From the NCBI GenBank assembly GCA_025517465.1, contig JAOPKE010000001.1:372001-436000 (forward strand): a stretch of 64,000 nt of DNA. The letters are read 5' to 3'. The position numbers and the translations under genes are program-made. The stretch comes from Halobacteria archaeon HArc-gm2 (lineage in GTDB: Archaea > Halobacteriota > Halobacteria > Halobacteriales > Haloarculaceae). Positions 46,627 to 54,246 of this stretch are shown in pieces (position 1 is the stretch's first letter; every line of letters begins with the position of its first letter). The notes under the pieces were generated by a model that made no database searches, had not been told where the DNA came from, and was given only the letters and a program-made list of their open reading frames with translations.

Positions 46627-47244
46627 TCAGATCAGCATCTGGACGGCGGCGACGCCGCGGAAGGCGTAGCCGAACACGAGCAACGCGGGGACGGCCCCGA
46701 GCAGTGCGGCCCTGGGAACCGAGAGGTCGTGGATCACGCTCGTCCCGACGACGTATAGCGCGCTGCCCCAGAGCGCACAGGCGATCCGCAGTTCCGGGAA
46801 CGGCAGGCCCGCGAGCACGCACGGCGCGGTGGCGTACGCGATGACCTGGACCGTCTGGCTCACGCCGCCCCGATCGGGCGCGAACGGCGCGAGCAAGAGC
46901 GTCTGGAGGGCGGCCGTCAGGTGCAACACCGCCGGCGCGACGAAGACGACGACGGCCAGTAGCGCGAGCAGGGACTCCAGCGGTCCCAGGTCGCCGATGA
47001 GGGGGTACGGAAACGGACCCGTCGAGAGGGCGCCCCGGGCGGCGAGATCGACGACGGCGAACCGGCTGGCCTCCTCGACGAGGACGACGACCGAGGCGAA
47101 CACGAGGCCGGGCGCCTGGTCGCCGGGGGCGACGCCGCGCTCGAAGAAGCGTCGTGGCCGGGTCAGTACTTCGAACCACGCGCGCGCGAGAGCCGTCGGT
47201 CCGCGGTCGCGTCCGCCCGTCGGGTCCTCGATCCACTGTGTCAT
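46627..47244 (-). CDS. Yip1-family membrane protein
   Basis: 205 residues. The N-terminal LARAWFEVLTRPRRFFERGVAPGDQAPGLVFA is the typical Yip1 entry motif before five hydrophobic segments. The archaeal version is of unknown function. It lies 25 bp from the FMN reductase gene on the same strand, possibly as an operon. Confidence 0.8.
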   Translation of the reverse strand: MTQWIEDPTGGRDRGPTALARAWFEVLTRPRRFFERGVAPGDQAPGLVFASVVVLVEEASRFAVVDLAARGALSTGPFPYPLIGDLGPLESLLALLAVVVFVAPAVLHLTAALQTLLLAPFAPDRGGVSQTVQVIAYATAPCVLAGLPFPELRIACALWGSALYVVGTSVIHDLSVPRAALLGAVPALLVFGYAFRGVAAVQMLI

Positions 47245-48095: not shown

Positions 48096-50450
48096 ATGAG
48101 TCCGGAACTGTCGGTGGTGACGACGGCGATCGCCCTCCCGTTCGTCGGTGCTGCAGCCACGCCACTGATCTACCGGTGGTTCGGCGAGCGGACGGGGTAC
48201 GCGGCCGCCGCGCTCGCGCTCGTGAGCTTCGGCCTGCTCGCGACGCAACTCGGGGAGTACGGCACGGTCGCCGCCCCGTGGATACCCTCGATCGGCGTCG
48301 CACTGCGATTCACCGTCGACGGCTGGGCGCTCCTGTTCGCACTCCTGGCCAGCGGTATCGGCGTGCTCGTCTTCACCTACTCGGCGGCATACATGCACGG
48401 TGGTCACAACTTGCAGCGGTACTACGCCGCCCTGCTCGCGTTCATGGGTTCCATCCTCGGCGTCGCGCTGGCCGCGGATCTGGTCGTCGTCTTCCTCTTC
48501 TGGGAGCTGACGAGCCTCGCCTCGTTCGTCCTCATCGGTCACCACACGACCGACGGCGAGTCGCGATACGCCGCCCGAATGGCGATGCTCGTCACCGTCG
48601 GCGGCGGGCTCTGCCTGCTCGCCGGCCTGCTCGTCCTCTCCATCGCGGCGCGACAGGCGCTCGGCACGGCCTCCTTCGACCTGGCGACGATGCTCGCCAA
48701 CGACGAGGCGATGCGAAGCGCCCTGCGCGACCAGGGGCTGTTCGTCCCGGCACTGGTCCTGATCGCTATCGCGGCCGCTGCCAAGTCCGCCCAGGTCCCG
48801 CTACACTTCTGGCTCCCCAACGCGATGGTCGCGCCGACGCCCGTCTCGGCGTTCCTCCACTCCGCGACGATGGTGAAGGTCGGCGTCTACTTCGTCGGCC
48901 GACTCCGTCCGCTCCTGAGCGGGCCGGAGTGGACGCTACTGTTCGCGACGCTCGGGCTGGTGACGATGACGGTCGGTGCGTTGCTCGCCGTCGCCTCGAC
49001 GGACACGAAGGAGTTGCTGGCCTACTCCACCGCGAGCCACCTCGGTCTGATGGTCGCTGGCTTCGGGTTCGGTGCCGTCGCTGGCGGCGAAGCCGGCGCG
49101 TTCCACTTGCTCAACCACGCGCTGTTCAAGGCGCCGCTGTTCCTCGTCGCCGGCATCCTGGCTCACGAGGCGGGCTCGCGCAGTCTCGACAACATGAGCG
49201 GCCTCCGGCGAGAACTCCCGGTCACAGCGGCCATCGCCGTCGTCGCCGGCCTCAGCATGGCTGGGATTCCGCCCTTCAACGGCTTCTACTCCAAGGAGCT
49301 CCTCTTCGAGGCGGCTTACGAGTTCGGCCACGAGGCGGGGGGACTGGCGTGGCTCTATCCGGCAGTGGCCACCGTCGCGAGTATCTTCACCGTCCTGTAC
49401 TCGCTCAAGTTCCTCGCCGTCTTCTTCGGCGAGCGCCGCGCGCCCCAGAAGACGGTCCCGCGACCGCCCACAGCGCTCGTGGTCCCGCCCGCAGTGCTCG
49501 CCCTCGGCGTGCTGGTCGTCAGCGCCGTCCCGCAGTTCGCCGTCGACCTGATCGTCCAGGGCGCCGTCGACGCCACTGCCCGCGGGCAGCCGGAATTCAG
49601 CGTCCACTTCCCGCCGGAACACGTCACGCCACCGCTCCTGATGTCCGGCGTCGCCATCGTCGGTGGCGTCGCCGCGTACCCGGTCACGGACCGCGTCGCG
49701 CGCGCTATCGAGACGGTGCGTGACTCGACGGTGCTGATCAGGCCGAGCGGCTGGTACGACCGTGCGCTCTCCGAAACCGAACGCGCTGGCGCCCATGTCG
49801 GTCCGCTCGTCCACACCGGCGTCCTCAGGACGTACGTCGTCTGGGGACTCGCGACGGTGAGTGCGCTCGTCCTCGCGGGCTACGTCGCGACCAGTGCCAG
49901 TGTCCCCGCCGTCGACGGCCTCGGCGTTCCACTGATCGTCGCGCTCGTCCTGTTGATCGCGCTGCTCGCCGGGTTCGCCGTTCCCACGGCGCCCTCGCAC
50001 GTCGCGGGCGTGCTCACCCTCTCCATCCTGGGATTCGTGCTGGCGATCTTCTACATCGTCGCGAGCGCTCCGGACCTGGCGCTGACCCAGCTCGTCGTCG
50101 AGACGCTCGTCCTGTTGATCTTCCTGCTCGTCCTCCAGCGACTGCCGGAGTTCTACGCGGACCTCGACCGGTTCGTCGTCGGTCGCGACGTGGTCCTCTC
50201 GCTCGTCGTCGGCGTGATGGCCTTCGTCTCGACGCTGCTCGTCAGCCCGGACCCGGCGGCAGATCCGACGGAACTGGCCCGCTACTACGTGACGGAAGCC
50301 GTCCCGGAGGGCGGCGGGACGAACGTCGTCAACGTCGTCCTCGTGGACTTCCGCGGCTTCGACACGATGGGGGAACTCGTCGTGATCACCATCGCGGCCG
50401 TCTCGGTCCTCGTGCTCGTAACGATGCGGACGCGGGGTGAGACGCAGTGA
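48096..50450 (+). CDS. mrpA: Mrp Na+/H+ antiporter subunit A (fused with DUF4040/MbhE-like C-terminus)
   Basis: 784 residues. The N-terminal 14-helix NuoL-like unit carries FLFWELTSLASFVLIG, KSAQVPLHFWLPNAM and HSATMVKVGVYFVGRL. After about residue 600 the DUF4040 segment (LSILGFVLAIFYIVASAPDLALTQLVVETLV) and an MbhE-like tail complete the subunit. With MrpD it forms the ion-translocating core of the multi-subunit antiporter, expelling Na+ in exchange for protons. First gene of a seven-subunit operon; TGA overlaps mrpB GTG (50447-50450). Confidence 0.95.
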   Translation: MSPELSVVTTAIALPFVGAAATPLIYRWFGERTGYAAAALALVSFGLLATQLGEYGTVAAPWIPSIGVALRFTVDGWALLFALLASGIGVLVFTYSAAYMHGGHNLQRYYAALLAFMGSILGVALAADLVVVFLFWELTSLASFVLIGHHTTDGESRYAARMAMLVTVGGGLCLLAGLLVLSIAARQALGTASFDLATMLANDEAMRSALRDQGLFVPALVLIAIAAAAKSAQVPLHFWLPNAMVAPTPVSAFLHSATMVKVGVYFVGRLRPLLSGPEWTLLFATLGLVTMTVGALLAVASTDTKELLAYSTASHLGLMVAGFGFGAVAGGEAGAFHLLNHALFKAPLFLVAGILAHEAGSRSLDNMSGLRRELPVTAAIAVVAGLSMAGIPPFNGFYSKELLFEAAYEFGHEAGGLAWLYPAVATVASIFTVLYSLKFLAVFFGERRAPQKTVPRPPTALVVPPAVLALGVLVVSAVPQFAVDLIVQGAVDATARGQPEFSVHFPPEHVTPPLLMSGVAIVGGVAAYPVTDRVARAIETVRDSTVLIRPSGWYDRALSETERAGAHVGPLVHTGVLRTYVVWGLATVSALVLAGYVATSASVPAVDGLGVPLIVALVLLIALLAGFAVPTAPSHVAGVLTLSILGFVLAIFYIVASAPDLALTQLVVETLVLLIFLLVLQRLPEFYADLDRFVVGRDVVLSLVVGVMAFVSTLLVSPDPAADPTELARYYVTEAVPEGGGTNVVNVVLVDFRGFDTMGELVVITIAAVSVLVLVTMRTRGETQ

Positions 50451-50911
50451 CGACGACGATCATGAAGACGACGGCGCGGATCGCGGTCCCGATCATCCTG
50501 GTGCTGGCGGTCTCGCTGTTCTTCCAGGGCCACAACCTGCCCGGTGGCGGGTTCATCGGCGGCGTGCTGACGACGACCGCGTTCGTCCTCGTCTACGTCG
50601 CCTACGGGCTGGACTACCTCGAGGCCGGTGTCCTCGACCGCGAGGTCGACCCGGGGACCGGTATCTTCGAACACCGCTCGGTCACCGCCTACAGGCGGAC
50701 GTTCGTGCTCGGGCTCACTATCGTCGTCGGGAGCGGTCTCGCCGGCCTGCTACTCGGCGGGTCGTTCCTGGCCCAGGACTACGTCATCCTCCACGACGTC
50801 CCCATCTACCACGAGGTCGAACTCGCGAGCGCGCTGGTGTTCGACCTGGGGGTCTACCTCGTCGTGGTTGGCGGGCTCCTCACGATACTCTCGGTGGTGG
50901 GTGCGGAATGA
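50447..50911 (+). CDS. mrpB: Mrp antiporter subunit B
   Basis: 154 residues, GTG start. MnhB domain with IILVLAVSLFFQGHNLPGGGFIGG, the family hallmark, and four transmembrane helices. Overlaps mrpC by 4 bp. Confidence 0.93.
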   Translation: MTTTIMKTTARIAVPIILVLAVSLFFQGHNLPGGGFIGGVLTTTAFVLVYVAYGLDYLEAGVLDREVDPGTGIFEHRSVTAYRRTFVLGLTIVVGSGLAGLLLGGSFLAQDYVILHDVPIYHEVELASALVFDLGVYLVVVGGLLTILSVVGAE

Positions 50912-51258
50912 GCGTCGCGCTGGCCGCCGTCGTCGGCGGGCTGTTCGCCGTCGGCACGTTCCTCCTGTTGCGCCGCAATCTGGTCCGGGTCGTCTGGGGC
51001 ATCGCGGTCATCACCCAGGCGGCGAACGTCTACCTCATCGCGATGGGCGGGGTCCAGGCCCCGACCCACGACCTGGTCCCGGTCCTCGAAGGCCACGGGA
51101 GTGAGGTGCCACAGACGGCCGACCCGGTCGTCCAGGCGCTCGTGCTGACGGCCATCGTCATCAGCTTCGGGACAACGGCGCTGGCGCTGGCGCTCTCGTT
51201 CCGCGCCTACGAGGAGAACGGGTCCATCGACGTCGCGGAGTGGGGTGAAGAGGGATGA
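50908..51258 (+). CDS. mrpC: Mrp antiporter subunit C (NuoK-like)
   Basis: 116 residues, three helices, including GIAVITQAANVYLIAMGG and the acidic tail. The C-terminal helix has VVQALVLTAIVISFGTTALALALSFR. The start ATG overlaps the mrpB stop; its own stop overlaps mrpD (51255-51258). Confidence 0.93.
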   Translation: MSVALAAVVGGLFAVGTFLLLRRNLVRVVWGIAVITQAANVYLIAMGGVQAPTHDLVPVLEGHGSEVPQTADPVVQALVLTAIVISFGTTALALALSFRAYEENGSIDVAEWGEEG

Positions 51259-52856
51259 GTTTCCTCGTCGTCGCGCCGGTCGTGGTCGCCATCGCCGGCG
51301 TCGTCCTGGCGTTCCTGGTCTCTCGGTGGCCGCGGGTCCAGCGCGCGACGAGCGCCGCGACGGGCGCCGTCTACGCCGGGACCGTGGCGACTGCGGTGTG
51401 GCGGCTCGTGCTCGGTCCGGACGCACCCGGCGCGGCGGCCTACCAGCTCGGCGGCCACCCGGCACCGTTCGGCATCACGCTCGTCCTGGACGGGCTCTCG
51501 GCGTTCATGCTCGTCGTCGCCGCCGTCGTGGGGCTCGCGTCGATAACGTTCTCCGTCGTCTTCGTCGAGCGGGACAACCAGCGGGTGTACTACCACCCGC
51601 TCTTTCACTGCCTCCTCCTGGGTGTCACCGGCGCGTTCCTCACCGGCGACCTGTTCAACCTCTTCGTCTGGTTCGAGGTGATGCTGATGGCCAGCTACGT
51701 GTTCGTCGCCTTCTACGGCGGCGCTCGCCACACCGCGGCGGCCGTCCGGTACCTCGTCCTCAACGTCGTCGGCAGCGCGTTGATGCTGCTCGGCATCGGC
51801 GGCCTGTACGCGGTGACGGGGACGCTCAACATGGCCGACATGGCGCGCAGACTCGCCGACCCCGCGGCCTCCGGCATCGACCCGGCGCCGGTCGTCGGGC
51901 TCTCGGCGCTCCTGCTGGTCGTCTTCGCGCTCAAGGCCGGCCTGGTCCCCTTCCAGTTCTGGGTCCCCGCCGCGTACACCACCGCGCCGCTGCCGGTGAC
52001 GGCGATGCTCGCCGGCGTGACGAAGAAGGTCGGCGTCTACGCCATCGTCCGCCTCTACTTCACCGTGCTGGCGGGCGCCGCGATTCCGGTCGACGTCCTC
52101 GGCGTCGCGGGCGACTCGCCGCTTTCGTTCCTGGCGCCGGTGCTCGCCGCGATGGGCGTCGCGAGCATCGTCGTCGGCGGCCTCGGCGCCGTCTCCAGGG
52201 ACACCCTGGAAGGAACCTTCGCGTACTCGAGCGTGGGACAGGTGGGCTTCATCGTCGTTCCCGTCGCGATCGCGGCCGCCAGTACCGGTCAACTCCGGCA
52301 GATAGCCCTCGTCGCCGCGCTCGTGTACGCCCTCCACCACTCGCTGGCCAAGAGCCTGCTCTTCCTGTCGGCCGCCGCCGTCTCCGACGCGACCGGGACG
52401 AACCGCGTGCGAGACGTCGGTGGACTCGCTGGACGATCGCCCGTGCTCGCCGGCGCGTTCTTCGTCGGCATCCTGTCGCTCGTGGGGCTCCCGCCGCTGG
52501 CCGGCTTCTTCGGGAAGTTCTTCGTCTTCGACGTCTCGATCCGGTGGTACGCGACGGCGCCGGGCTGGGCTCCCCTCGCCGTCTTCCTCTCGCTGCTGGC
52601 AGGCGCGCTGCTCACCATCGTCTACACGACCAGGACCTGGACGGGCTGTTTCTGGGGCGCCGAGACGCCGGCCGTCGAGGGGTCGGTCGTCGACGGGAGA
52701 CAGCTGGCCGTCCTCGTCGCGCTCGCGGCGGTCGTCGTCGCCGTCGGCGTCGGGTTCGACCCGGTGTACCGCTTCGCCGAGACGGCCGCCACGGCCGCGA
52801 CGGAGCGCGGCGACTACGTCGAGGTCGTCTTCCCCGACGGAGGTGGGGCGGCGTGA
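51255..52856 (+). CDS. mrpD: Mrp antiporter subunit D (NuoM/N-like)
   Basis: 533 residues, 14 helices. Key polar residues lie in LFVWFEVMLMASYVF, ALKAGLVPFQFWVPAAY and GVTKKVGVYAIVRLYF. Conserved lysines and the glutamate resemble the complex I antiporter subunits. It carries half of the translocation core with MrpA. GTGA overlap with mrpE. Confidence 0.94.
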   Translation: MSFLVVAPVVVAIAGVVLAFLVSRWPRVQRATSAATGAVYAGTVATAVWRLVLGPDAPGAAAYQLGGHPAPFGITLVLDGLSAFMLVVAAVVGLASITFSVVFVERDNQRVYYHPLFHCLLLGVTGAFLTGDLFNLFVWFEVMLMASYVFVAFYGGARHTAAAVRYLVLNVVGSALMLLGIGGLYAVTGTLNMADMARRLADPAASGIDPAPVVGLSALLLVVFALKAGLVPFQFWVPAAYTTAPLPVTAMLAGVTKKVGVYAIVRLYFTVLAGAAIPVDVLGVAGDSPLSFLAPVLAAMGVASIVVGGLGAVSRDTLEGTFAYSSVGQVGFIVVPVAIAAASTGQLRQIALVAALVYALHHSLAKSLLFLSAAAVSDATGTNRVRDVGGLAGRSPVLAGAFFVGILSLVGLPPLAGFFGKFFVFDVSIRWYATAPGWAPLAVFLSLLAGALLTIVYTTRTWTGCFWGAETPAVEGSVVDGRQLAVLVALAAVVVAVGVGFDPVYRFAETAATAATERGDYVEVVFPDGGGAA

Positions 52857-53509
52857 CGCGCCGCTGGCCGGTCGCCGGCGTACTGTTCGGCGTCCTCTGG
52901 GTGTTCGTCCGGGGCGTCCCCCTCTCGCCGGACCCGATGCTCGGGCAGTTCCTCTTCGGCCTCGTCGTCGGGATGCCCATCGCGTTCGTGTTCAGGCGGC
53001 TGTACAGCGAGGGGATCGACCTCCGGCGGACGCTGCGGTCGATCCCGTACGCGTTCCTGTACGTAAGCCTGTTCACCAGAGAGGTCGTCGTCGGTAACAT
53101 CGACGTCACGTACCGCGTCCTCGCGCCGTCCCAGCCCATCGAACCGGAGGTCATCCTCATCCCGCTCCGGGTCCGGACAGACCTCGGTGTGACCACTATC
53201 GCCAACAGCATCACCATCACGCCCGGGACGATAACGCTTGACTACGACGAGGCGGAGAACGCGCTGTACGTCCACGTCATCGACGGCCGCGACCCCGAGG
53301 CGATCGTTCGACCCATCAGAAACTGGGAGGACTACGCCCTCCGGATTTTCGACGAGGAACTGTCGCCCGGCGACCCCGCGCCTGACTTCGCCGTCTACCC
53401 GCCGGACCAGACCCACCCGGTCCTCGAACAGGCCGGCGGCGGGCCGGACGCCCAGCCCGCAGATCCGGACGAGCACGCTGAATACGGAGGTGAGACCGAT
53501 GGTCGCTGA
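52853..53509 (+). CDS. mrpE: Mrp antiporter subunit E
   Basis: 218 residues from the GTG at 52853. MnhE domain: two N-terminal helices, then FLYVSLFTREVVVGNIDVTYRVL and TIANSITITPGTITLDYDE. The C-terminal 50 residues are acidic and low-complexity. Overlaps mrpF by 11 bp. Confidence 0.92.
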   Translation: MTRRWPVAGVLFGVLWVFVRGVPLSPDPMLGQFLFGLVVGMPIAFVFRRLYSEGIDLRRTLRSIPYAFLYVSLFTREVVVGNIDVTYRVLAPSQPIEPEVILIPLRVRTDLGVTTIANSITITPGTITLDYDEAENALYVHVIDGRDPEAIVRPIRNWEDYALRIFDEELSPGDPAPDFAVYPPDQTHPVLEQAGGGPDAQPADPDEHAEYGGETDGR

Positions 53510-53795
53510 GAGCGGACTGGTGACCACCGCCGCAGACGTCGCCATCGTCCTCGTGACGCTCCTGAGCCTCCTCTGTGGCTACCGGGTCGTCCGCGGGCCG
53601 ACCGTCCCCGACCGCGTCGTCGGCCTCGACGCCATCGCGACCAACGTCGTCGCCATCGCCGTCCTGTTCGCGCTCCGGACCGGCCGCGGCCTGTTCGTGA
53701 CGGTGAGTCTCGTGCTCGCGGTCATCGGCTTCCTCTCGACGGTCGCCGTCGCGAAGTTCGTCACGGAGGGCGACATCATCGTCCGTCAGGAGTAA
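53499..53795 (+). CDS. mrpF: Mrp antiporter subunit F
   Basis: 98 residues, three helices; the motif YRVVRGPTVPDRVVGLDAIATN is diagnostic. The last codons (caggagtaa) supply an SD-like aggag for the next small ORF. Confidence 0.93.
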   Translation: MVAESGLVTTAADVAIVLVTLLSLLCGYRVVRGPTVPDRVVGLDAIATNVVAIAVLFALRTGRGLFVTVSLVLAVIGFLSTVAVAKFVTEGDIIVRQE

Positions 53796-53797
53796 CC

Positions 53798-53911
53798 ATG
53801 CACTGTCAGACCCCACTCGACGACCGTTCGACGCCCTCGCCCAGTGAGCGAGCGGCAACCACCGGCAGCGAGATACTCGGCGGTTCGACGGTTGCGGAGA
53901 GGTGGATCTGA
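53798..53911 (+). CDS. Unannotated 37-residue ORF coupled between mrpF and mrpG
   Basis: ATG 2 nt after the mrpF stop, aggag 5 nt before it (53788-53792). It ends with TGA at 53909-53911 whose last base is the A of the mrpG ATG. Reads MHCQTPLDDRSTPSPSERAA then TTGSEILGGSTVAERWI. No hydrophobic helix. The precise coupling on both sides, in an operon where every other junction overlaps, supports translation. It may be a leader for mrpG translation or a structural microprotein; no homologue is known to me. Confidence 0.5.
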   Translation: MHCQTPLDDRSTPSPSERAATTGSEILGGSTVAERWI

Positions 53912-54246
53912 TGGTCGGGCAGATCGAATCGCTCCTCGTCGTCGGCCTCGTCGCCGTCGGCTGTTTCTTCCTCACGGTCGGGACCATCGGCCTGCTCCGG
54001 TTGCCGAACGTCTACAATCGGATGCACGCGACGAGCAAACCCACGACGCTGGGCACCGTCTCCATCTTCCTCGCGGGATTCGTCTACTTCGGTCCCGGCG
54101 GCGCAGGTCTGCCGTCGCTCGTCGGCATCGCCTTCCTCTTCCTGACGGTGCCGACCGGTGCGCACATGATTTCCCGTGCGGCGGAGCGGACGGGGGTCCC
54201 GTTCCTGGGGGGCGTCACCTGGCCGGGGAAATCGGACGAGGAGTGA
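53911..54246 (+). CDS. mrpG: Mrp antiporter subunit G
   Basis: 111 residues from the ATG at 53911, preferred over the GTG at 53902. MnhG motif VGTIGLLRLPNVYNRMHATSK with three helices. Last gene of the operon; it converges on the sensor kinase with 25 bp between stops. Confidence 0.93.
   Translation: MVGQIESLLVVGLVAVGCFFLTVGTIGLLRLPNVYNRMHATSKPTTLGTVSIFLAGFVYFGPGGAGLPSLVGIAFLFLTVPTGAHMISRAAERTGVPFLGGVTWPGKSDEE

Follow-up and report, generated by a model that had tools for sequence, protein, structure and literature searches.

How do ribosomes reach mrpG in an operon whose preceding genes all overlap, and what is the role of the small open reading frame that lies in front of it? The locus is part of the window, the whole 64,000-nucleotide stretch of haloarchaeal DNA analyzed here. 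A preliminary description had pointed to a hidden open reading frame between mrpF and mrpG (hereafter the mini-ORF) and had offered two readings of it, a new Mrp accessory peptide or a translational relay. We examined the junction itself, its counterparts across Halobacteria, the constraint acting on the encoded peptides, and the alternatives to a role in translation.

The mrpF-mrpG junction of the window

The mrp genes lie on the forward strand and are tightly packed. mrpA (48096–50450; Pfam Proton_antipo_M, MbhD, and MbhE) comes first. mrpB (50447–50911; GTG start; NCBIfam MnhB/MrpB models, below their curated cut-offs), mrpC (50908–51258; NCBIfam subunit C models, below their curated cut-offs), mrpD (51255–52856; Pfam Proton_antipo_M), and mrpE (52853–53509; GTG start; Pfam MNHE) each overlap the preceding gene by 4 nt, and mrpF (53499–53795; Pfam MrpF_PhaF) overlaps mrpE by 11 nt. 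mrpF, whose 3′ end reads ..CAGGAGTAA, stops with TAA at 53793–53795; mrpG (53911–54246; Pfam PhaG_MnhG_YufB) starts with ATG at 53911, leaving a gap of 115 nt. This gap is filled by the mini-ORF (53798–53911, forward strand), an unannotated frame of 37 codons and a putative relay ORF, which begins with ATG at 53798, 2 nt past mrpF, and ends with TGA at 53909–53911. A Shine-Dalgarno (SD)-like AGGAG within the 3′ end of mrpF (53788–53792) precedes its ATG by 5 nt; another SD-like motif, GAGGTG, lies within its own 3′ end upstream of mrpG (53899–53904), and its stop codon overlaps the mrpG start in the sequence TGATG (53909–53913). The preliminary description had claimed the overlap of every mrpA-F junction, the exact filling of the only gap, and the 115-nt distance that would separate mrpF from mrpG without the mini-ORF; all of these held when the coordinates were checked.

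An in-frame GTG at 53902, also found at locus L003, offers an alternative mrpG start 3 codons earlier, which would give a 10-nt overlap with the mini-ORF; homologues favor 53911 as the start. Searched against Pfam and NCBIfam, the mini-ORF matched no family at E ≤ 1. The same genome carries a second, divergent mrpF-mrpG pair (L011, G000:C13:216667-216936), in which the genes overlap by 1 nt.

Bridging frames at mrpF-mrpG junctions of Halobacteria

We collected mrp loci with mrpG as the query, beginning with 64 named loci and the genus of the source genome and adding a family sample (63 of 146 genomes matching mrpG at E ≤ 1e-25), an even draw across the class Halobacteria (161 of 391 genomes matching mrpG), the family of genome G416 (14 of 170 genomes matching mrpG at E ≤ 1e-50), and the remaining listed or tabulated matches. 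Two records returned by a plasmid search play no further part here. The 257 loci searched included 254 with both mrpF and mrpG, which gave 198 distinct junctions once identical ones were merged (the named and unnamed sets overlap); near-identical junctions were retained. Left out of the counts were L001 (a repeat of the window locus), the second Mrp copies L006–L011 (−1 overlaps), and L074, L176, and L237, where mrpF was not found upstream; L176 stops at a contig edge, and L237 corresponds by coordinates to L074 (~1990–2250), an mrpG remnant from Halogeometricum pallidum that lacks its N-terminal part as well as an upstream mrpF.

At 153 of the 198 junctions the genes overlap or lie at most 4 nt apart (−4 to +4), 134 of them at exactly −4; L070 and L101, with an in-frame mrpG ATG at +2, were counted as touching. 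One junction, at +11 (L159, with the same arrangement in L276), is short and unbridged. None falls between 12 and 21 nt, and the remaining 44 have spacers of at least 22 nt (range 22–275 nt). Every one of these 44 spacers contains a bridging ORF, of 7 to 89 codons, which starts between −4 and +11 from the mrpF stop and ends between −8 and +13 from the mrpG start. The bridges of L029 and L030 start with GTG within a GTGA overlap. At the mrpG side, 15 of 44 end in a TGATG-type (+1) and 12 in an ATGA-type (+4) arrangement, an exact 1- or 4-nt overlap in 27 of 44, and the frame relation to mrpG is compatible with such overlaps in 41 of 44 and never in-frame (41:3:0). SD-like motifs accompany both starts: in 91% of the 44 junctions the mini-ORF start has an upstream match of at least 4 nt, vs 35% at random places, and in 91% the mrpG start has one of at least 5 nt, vs 11%.

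The longest bridge, in L242, follows from placing the mrpG start by hand at the in-frame ATG at +275 (our script took +314, which leaves the spacer unbridged); within its 89 codons a 7-residue (21-nt) unit recurs several times in frame. Locus L279, the mrpG match in genome G445, contains one TAG in frame; the gene may be a pseudogene, the codon may be a sequencing error, or it may lie upstream of the real start. Close relatives were examined for stops or frameshifts, named beforehand as evidence that would count against the mini-ORF, and none turned up: L003 (genome G006) has the same 37 codons as the window, and the frame is kept in 12 of 12 Haloferacaceae.

How often such bridges arise by chance was gauged with dinucleotide shuffles of the spacers. 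The window spacer alone is bridged in 0.8% of shuffles with ATG starts and 3% with GTG allowed. Across the 44 spacers, with a bridge scored when both ends fell within the published coupling range of −8 to +10 nt, 43 are bridged with ATG or GTG vs 13.8 expected, and 40 with ATG only vs 7.1 expected; the single miss is L014, whose bridge ends at +13. The 44 gap junctions are related to one another. We also drew one spacer per peptide cluster, the clusters being completed by hand and a link between L264 and the Haloferacaceae cluster being treated as chance. In this test 24 of 24 were bridged vs 8.5 expected, and 22 of 24 vs 4.8 with ATG only. None of 20,000 simulations reached the observed bridging (43 of 44; 24 of 24 per cluster). 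Column permutation of the alignment, which preserves relatedness, gave the same picture for the 12 Haloferacaceae (ATG-to-mrpG distance 68 nt): the full ATG bridge is present in 12 of 12, was recovered in 0 of 20,000 permutations, and appeared in 5 of 20,000 with GTG allowed. In 12 of the 44 junctions the bridge starts inside a 4-nt overlap at the mrpF stop; shuffles of these often bridge (up to 0.97) because the start sits in the unshuffled flank. The spacers are poor in T (11% vs 19–20% in the flanks), which makes open frames likelier, but the shuffles preserve the low T content and it is already inside the null. Bridging of the mrpF-mrpG gap thus exceeds chance, and the comparative evidence for it is far stronger than that from the single locus.

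We also considered whether gaps in this genome are bridged generically, and rejected it. Across 464 kb of the same genome, ATG bridges occur in 3 of 131 co-directional gaps vs 2.8 expected, the mrpF-mrpG gap being among the 3; these gaps (20–150 nt, from a simple gene finder) include gaps within operons, but most of them may separate transcription units, and the set is thus unmatched for operon membership. The gaps of this genome are thus not bridged as a rule. A 25-nt gap at 47244 between two minus-strand genes, bridged by a 9-codon ATG ORF, is one of the cases that occur at the chance rate.

Conservation of frame and ends, and of the peptide

The preliminary description had proposed comparing the spacer across haloarchaea for conserved codons; frame and ends proved to be conserved there, and the amino acid sequence did not. 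In the 12 Haloferacaceae, pN/pS of mini-ORF codons 2–18 is 1.00, vs 0.16 for mrpF and 0.18 for mrpG; it rises to 1.25 for codons 2–10 and drops to 0.18 for codons 19–22, which fall on the SD motif of mrpG. Between the window and G006, the closest pair, the mini-ORF has accumulated 9.5 nonsynonymous and 4.5 synonymous differences (dN/dS 0.73), with no indel and no stop, whereas mrpF has 0 and 7 (dN/dS 0.00) and mrpG 2 and 12 (dN/dS 0.06). In this pair the +2 frame has a pN/pS similar to that of the mini-ORF frame, so that the frame cannot be told from codon statistics alone. Codon 5 encodes His in 12 of 12 Haloferacaceae, with both His codons used; this invariant residue is a hint of local amino acid constraint, and the sole such sign in the alignment.

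Bridging peptides of at least 15 residues form 15 clusters (blastp-short, E < 0.01), many of them mutually unrelated. The 44 bridging peptides are mostly basic (net positive charge in 31) and have few hydrophobic residues. A function of the peptide was tested through pN/pS, position entropy, and peptide clustering, and gained no support. What is conserved in the bridging ORFs is the frame and its ends; the sequence is not. A conserved small ORF thus need not yield a functional peptide, and the combination of a kept frame and kept ends with free amino acids offers a test that separates relays from microproteins.

A structured RNA element was considered and dropped: the predicted fold of the window spacer is somewhat more stable than those of its shuffles (z −1.99), yet the spacers of L002 and L003 fold differently, and six Haloferacaceae yield a weak consensus fold with one weak stem, in which 5 of 7 pairs are broken in at least one sequence. 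No strong A+T-rich box was found 20–42 nt upstream of mrpG in the 44 junctions, the best reaching 6 of 8 A/T in 4 of 44. A scan for sigma-70-type promoters and intrinsic terminators, with models unsuited to archaea, found none.

A putative translational relay

Of the two readings offered beforehand, the relay gained support from the bridging of all 44 spacers, the frame relation, and the SD-like motifs, and the accessory peptide lost ground to the near-neutral substitution pattern and the spread of lengths and unrelated sequences. We infer that the mini-ORF is probably a translational relay that couples mrpF to mrpG. Ribosomes terminating mrpF at 53795 would reinitiate 2 nt downstream at the mini-ORF, aided by AGGAG in the end of mrpF; they would then translate the spacer, terminate at TGATG, and reinitiate on mrpG, aided by GAGGTG in the end of the mini-ORF. 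In this way the synthesis of MrpG would remain linked to that of MrpF even though, without the mini-ORF, the spacer would uncouple the two. The peptide would be a by-product, and selection would keep the start, the open frame, the end, and the SD sites.

This proposal draws on work in Haloferax volcanii, in which coupling is reported to be reduced at distances of 13–14 nt and near zero at 22–23 nt (Huber et al. 2023, PMC10666635), a premature upstream stop abolishes downstream translation, and the SD motif is inactive in de novo initiation (Huber et al. 2019, PMC6728339). For two E. coli gene pairs, the last 15 nt of the upstream gene suffice for coupling (PMC10666635). A bare spacer of 115 nt would be expected to silence mrpG on a shared mRNA because coupling in H. 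volcanii fades within ~20 nt, and a reading frame with coupling at each end would reopen the path for ribosomes. mrpG, with its own SD-like site, may also undergo some independent initiation.

That the mini-ORF instead specifies a peptide with a function of its own, as a small Mrp subunit or a regulator, seems to us improbable. Its conserved position, His5, and the net positive charge of most bridging peptides would suit such a role; the freely changing codons 2–18, the low value at codons 19–22 that coincides with an SD site, and lengths from 7 to 89 codons in unrelated, scarcely hydrophobic clusters speak against it, as do the missing family match and the 153 junctions at which mrpF and mrpG touch and no bridging ORF is present. 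It is quite improbable, too, that the mini-ORF is translated mainly to hold ribosomes on the mRNA, preventing FttA-type termination, and not for hand-over to mrpG. Archaeal polarity has been linked to FttA (review PMC12548453), and T-poor spacers also fit an avoidance of U-rich terminators, but this account leaves unexplained the precise ends at the mrpG start and the SD motif before it. Polarity and relay roles may act together.

We judge it very improbable that the spacer serves as an independent start for mrpG (its own promoter, a leaderless mRNA) or as a structured RNA in which the ORF is incidental: the folding score of the window spacer points that way, but the fold is not shared by L002 and L003 and is weak in the Haloferacaceae, the A/T boxes are poor, and bridging lies far beyond chance. 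The suggestion that GC-rich DNA simply contains few stops, and that an open frame means little, can draw on the 3% of window shuffles that bridge and on a +2 frame that is open in 29 of 32 cases; it is almost certainly wrong, given a bridging frequency far above that in the shuffles, the column permutations, and the other gaps of the genome.

The proposed relay has relatives among described systems. Coupled overlapping pairs of H. volcanii and E. coli (PMC6728339, PMC10666635) share with mrpF-mrpG the ATGA or TGATG overlap, an SD motif inside the upstream gene, products that are subunits of one complex, and the need for a very short distance. As described there they are two ordinary genes, whereas mrpF and mrpG have a non-conserved mini-ORF between them and would require two coupling steps in series. 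Mycobacterial MIRU elements, as reviewed in PMC12548453, likewise place a short ORF for coupling to the next gene at a junction, where insertion does little harm; they are a repeated, apparently mobile family, whereas the peptides encoded in mrpF-mrpG spacers mostly show no recognizable sequence similarity from lineage to lineage and the 151-nt region of the window matches once in its own genome, as a single copy. Salmonella mgtQ, a short ORF located between mgtC and mgtB (PMC8092293), promotes translation of the gene that follows, reportedly by means of alternative stem-loops and acidic residues that destabilize ribosomes; the mini-ORF, unlike mgtQ, showed no conserved fold, and hardly any of its residues are conserved. 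Ribosome-delivering upstream ORFs (review PMC12548453) also function in translation and not through their product, but they are described as preceding a gene, and the mini-ORF sits between two operon genes and would receive its ribosome from mrpF. Ribosome delivery by a short ORF is thus a known principle, and a relay cistron between genes of an archaeal operon is apparently new; a literature search, with subscription journals mostly outside it, found no report of this mini-ORF, of archaeal intra-operon relay ORFs, or of experimental work on the mrp genes considered here.

Chances seem about even that haloarchaea more broadly use product-free relay cistrons, selected only as a ribosome path, which would appear whenever DNA grows between coupled genes and be lost once those genes come back into contact. 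In that case such operons would follow a rule of continuous ribosome passage, and some of the small ORFs without annotation that ribosome profiling detects in archaea would represent relays and not microproteins. The mrpF-mrpG junction amounts to a natural experiment on haloarchaeal operon translation, since in the sampled genomes a gap of at least 22 nt always comes with a bridging frame, and it lends evolutionary support to the laboratory result that a gap without translation all but stops haloarchaeal ribosomes.

Spacer length and ancestry

A FastTree reconstruction from 189 mrpF+mrpG rows, with the mrpF tail excluded, requires 9 changes of the gap label, 3 of them forced by starred branches; the direction of change is not given by the tree. 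The gap lineages are a single large group, interspersed with touching junctions, a group from genus g66 (L242, L257, and L264), and L123. The spacers of L125 and L126 differ by 39 nt, or 13 codons, and keep the frame; together with the in-frame repeat of L242, they indicate at the sequence level that changes in spacer length kept the reading frame.

The mrpF-mrpG pair of the window falls in a clade of 18 (support 94) with sequences from Haloferacaceae and Halobacterium, and two genus relatives, L004 and L005, carry more distant mrpF-mrpG versions in which the genes touch. The mrp operon of the window (48096–54246) was probably acquired by horizontal transfer.
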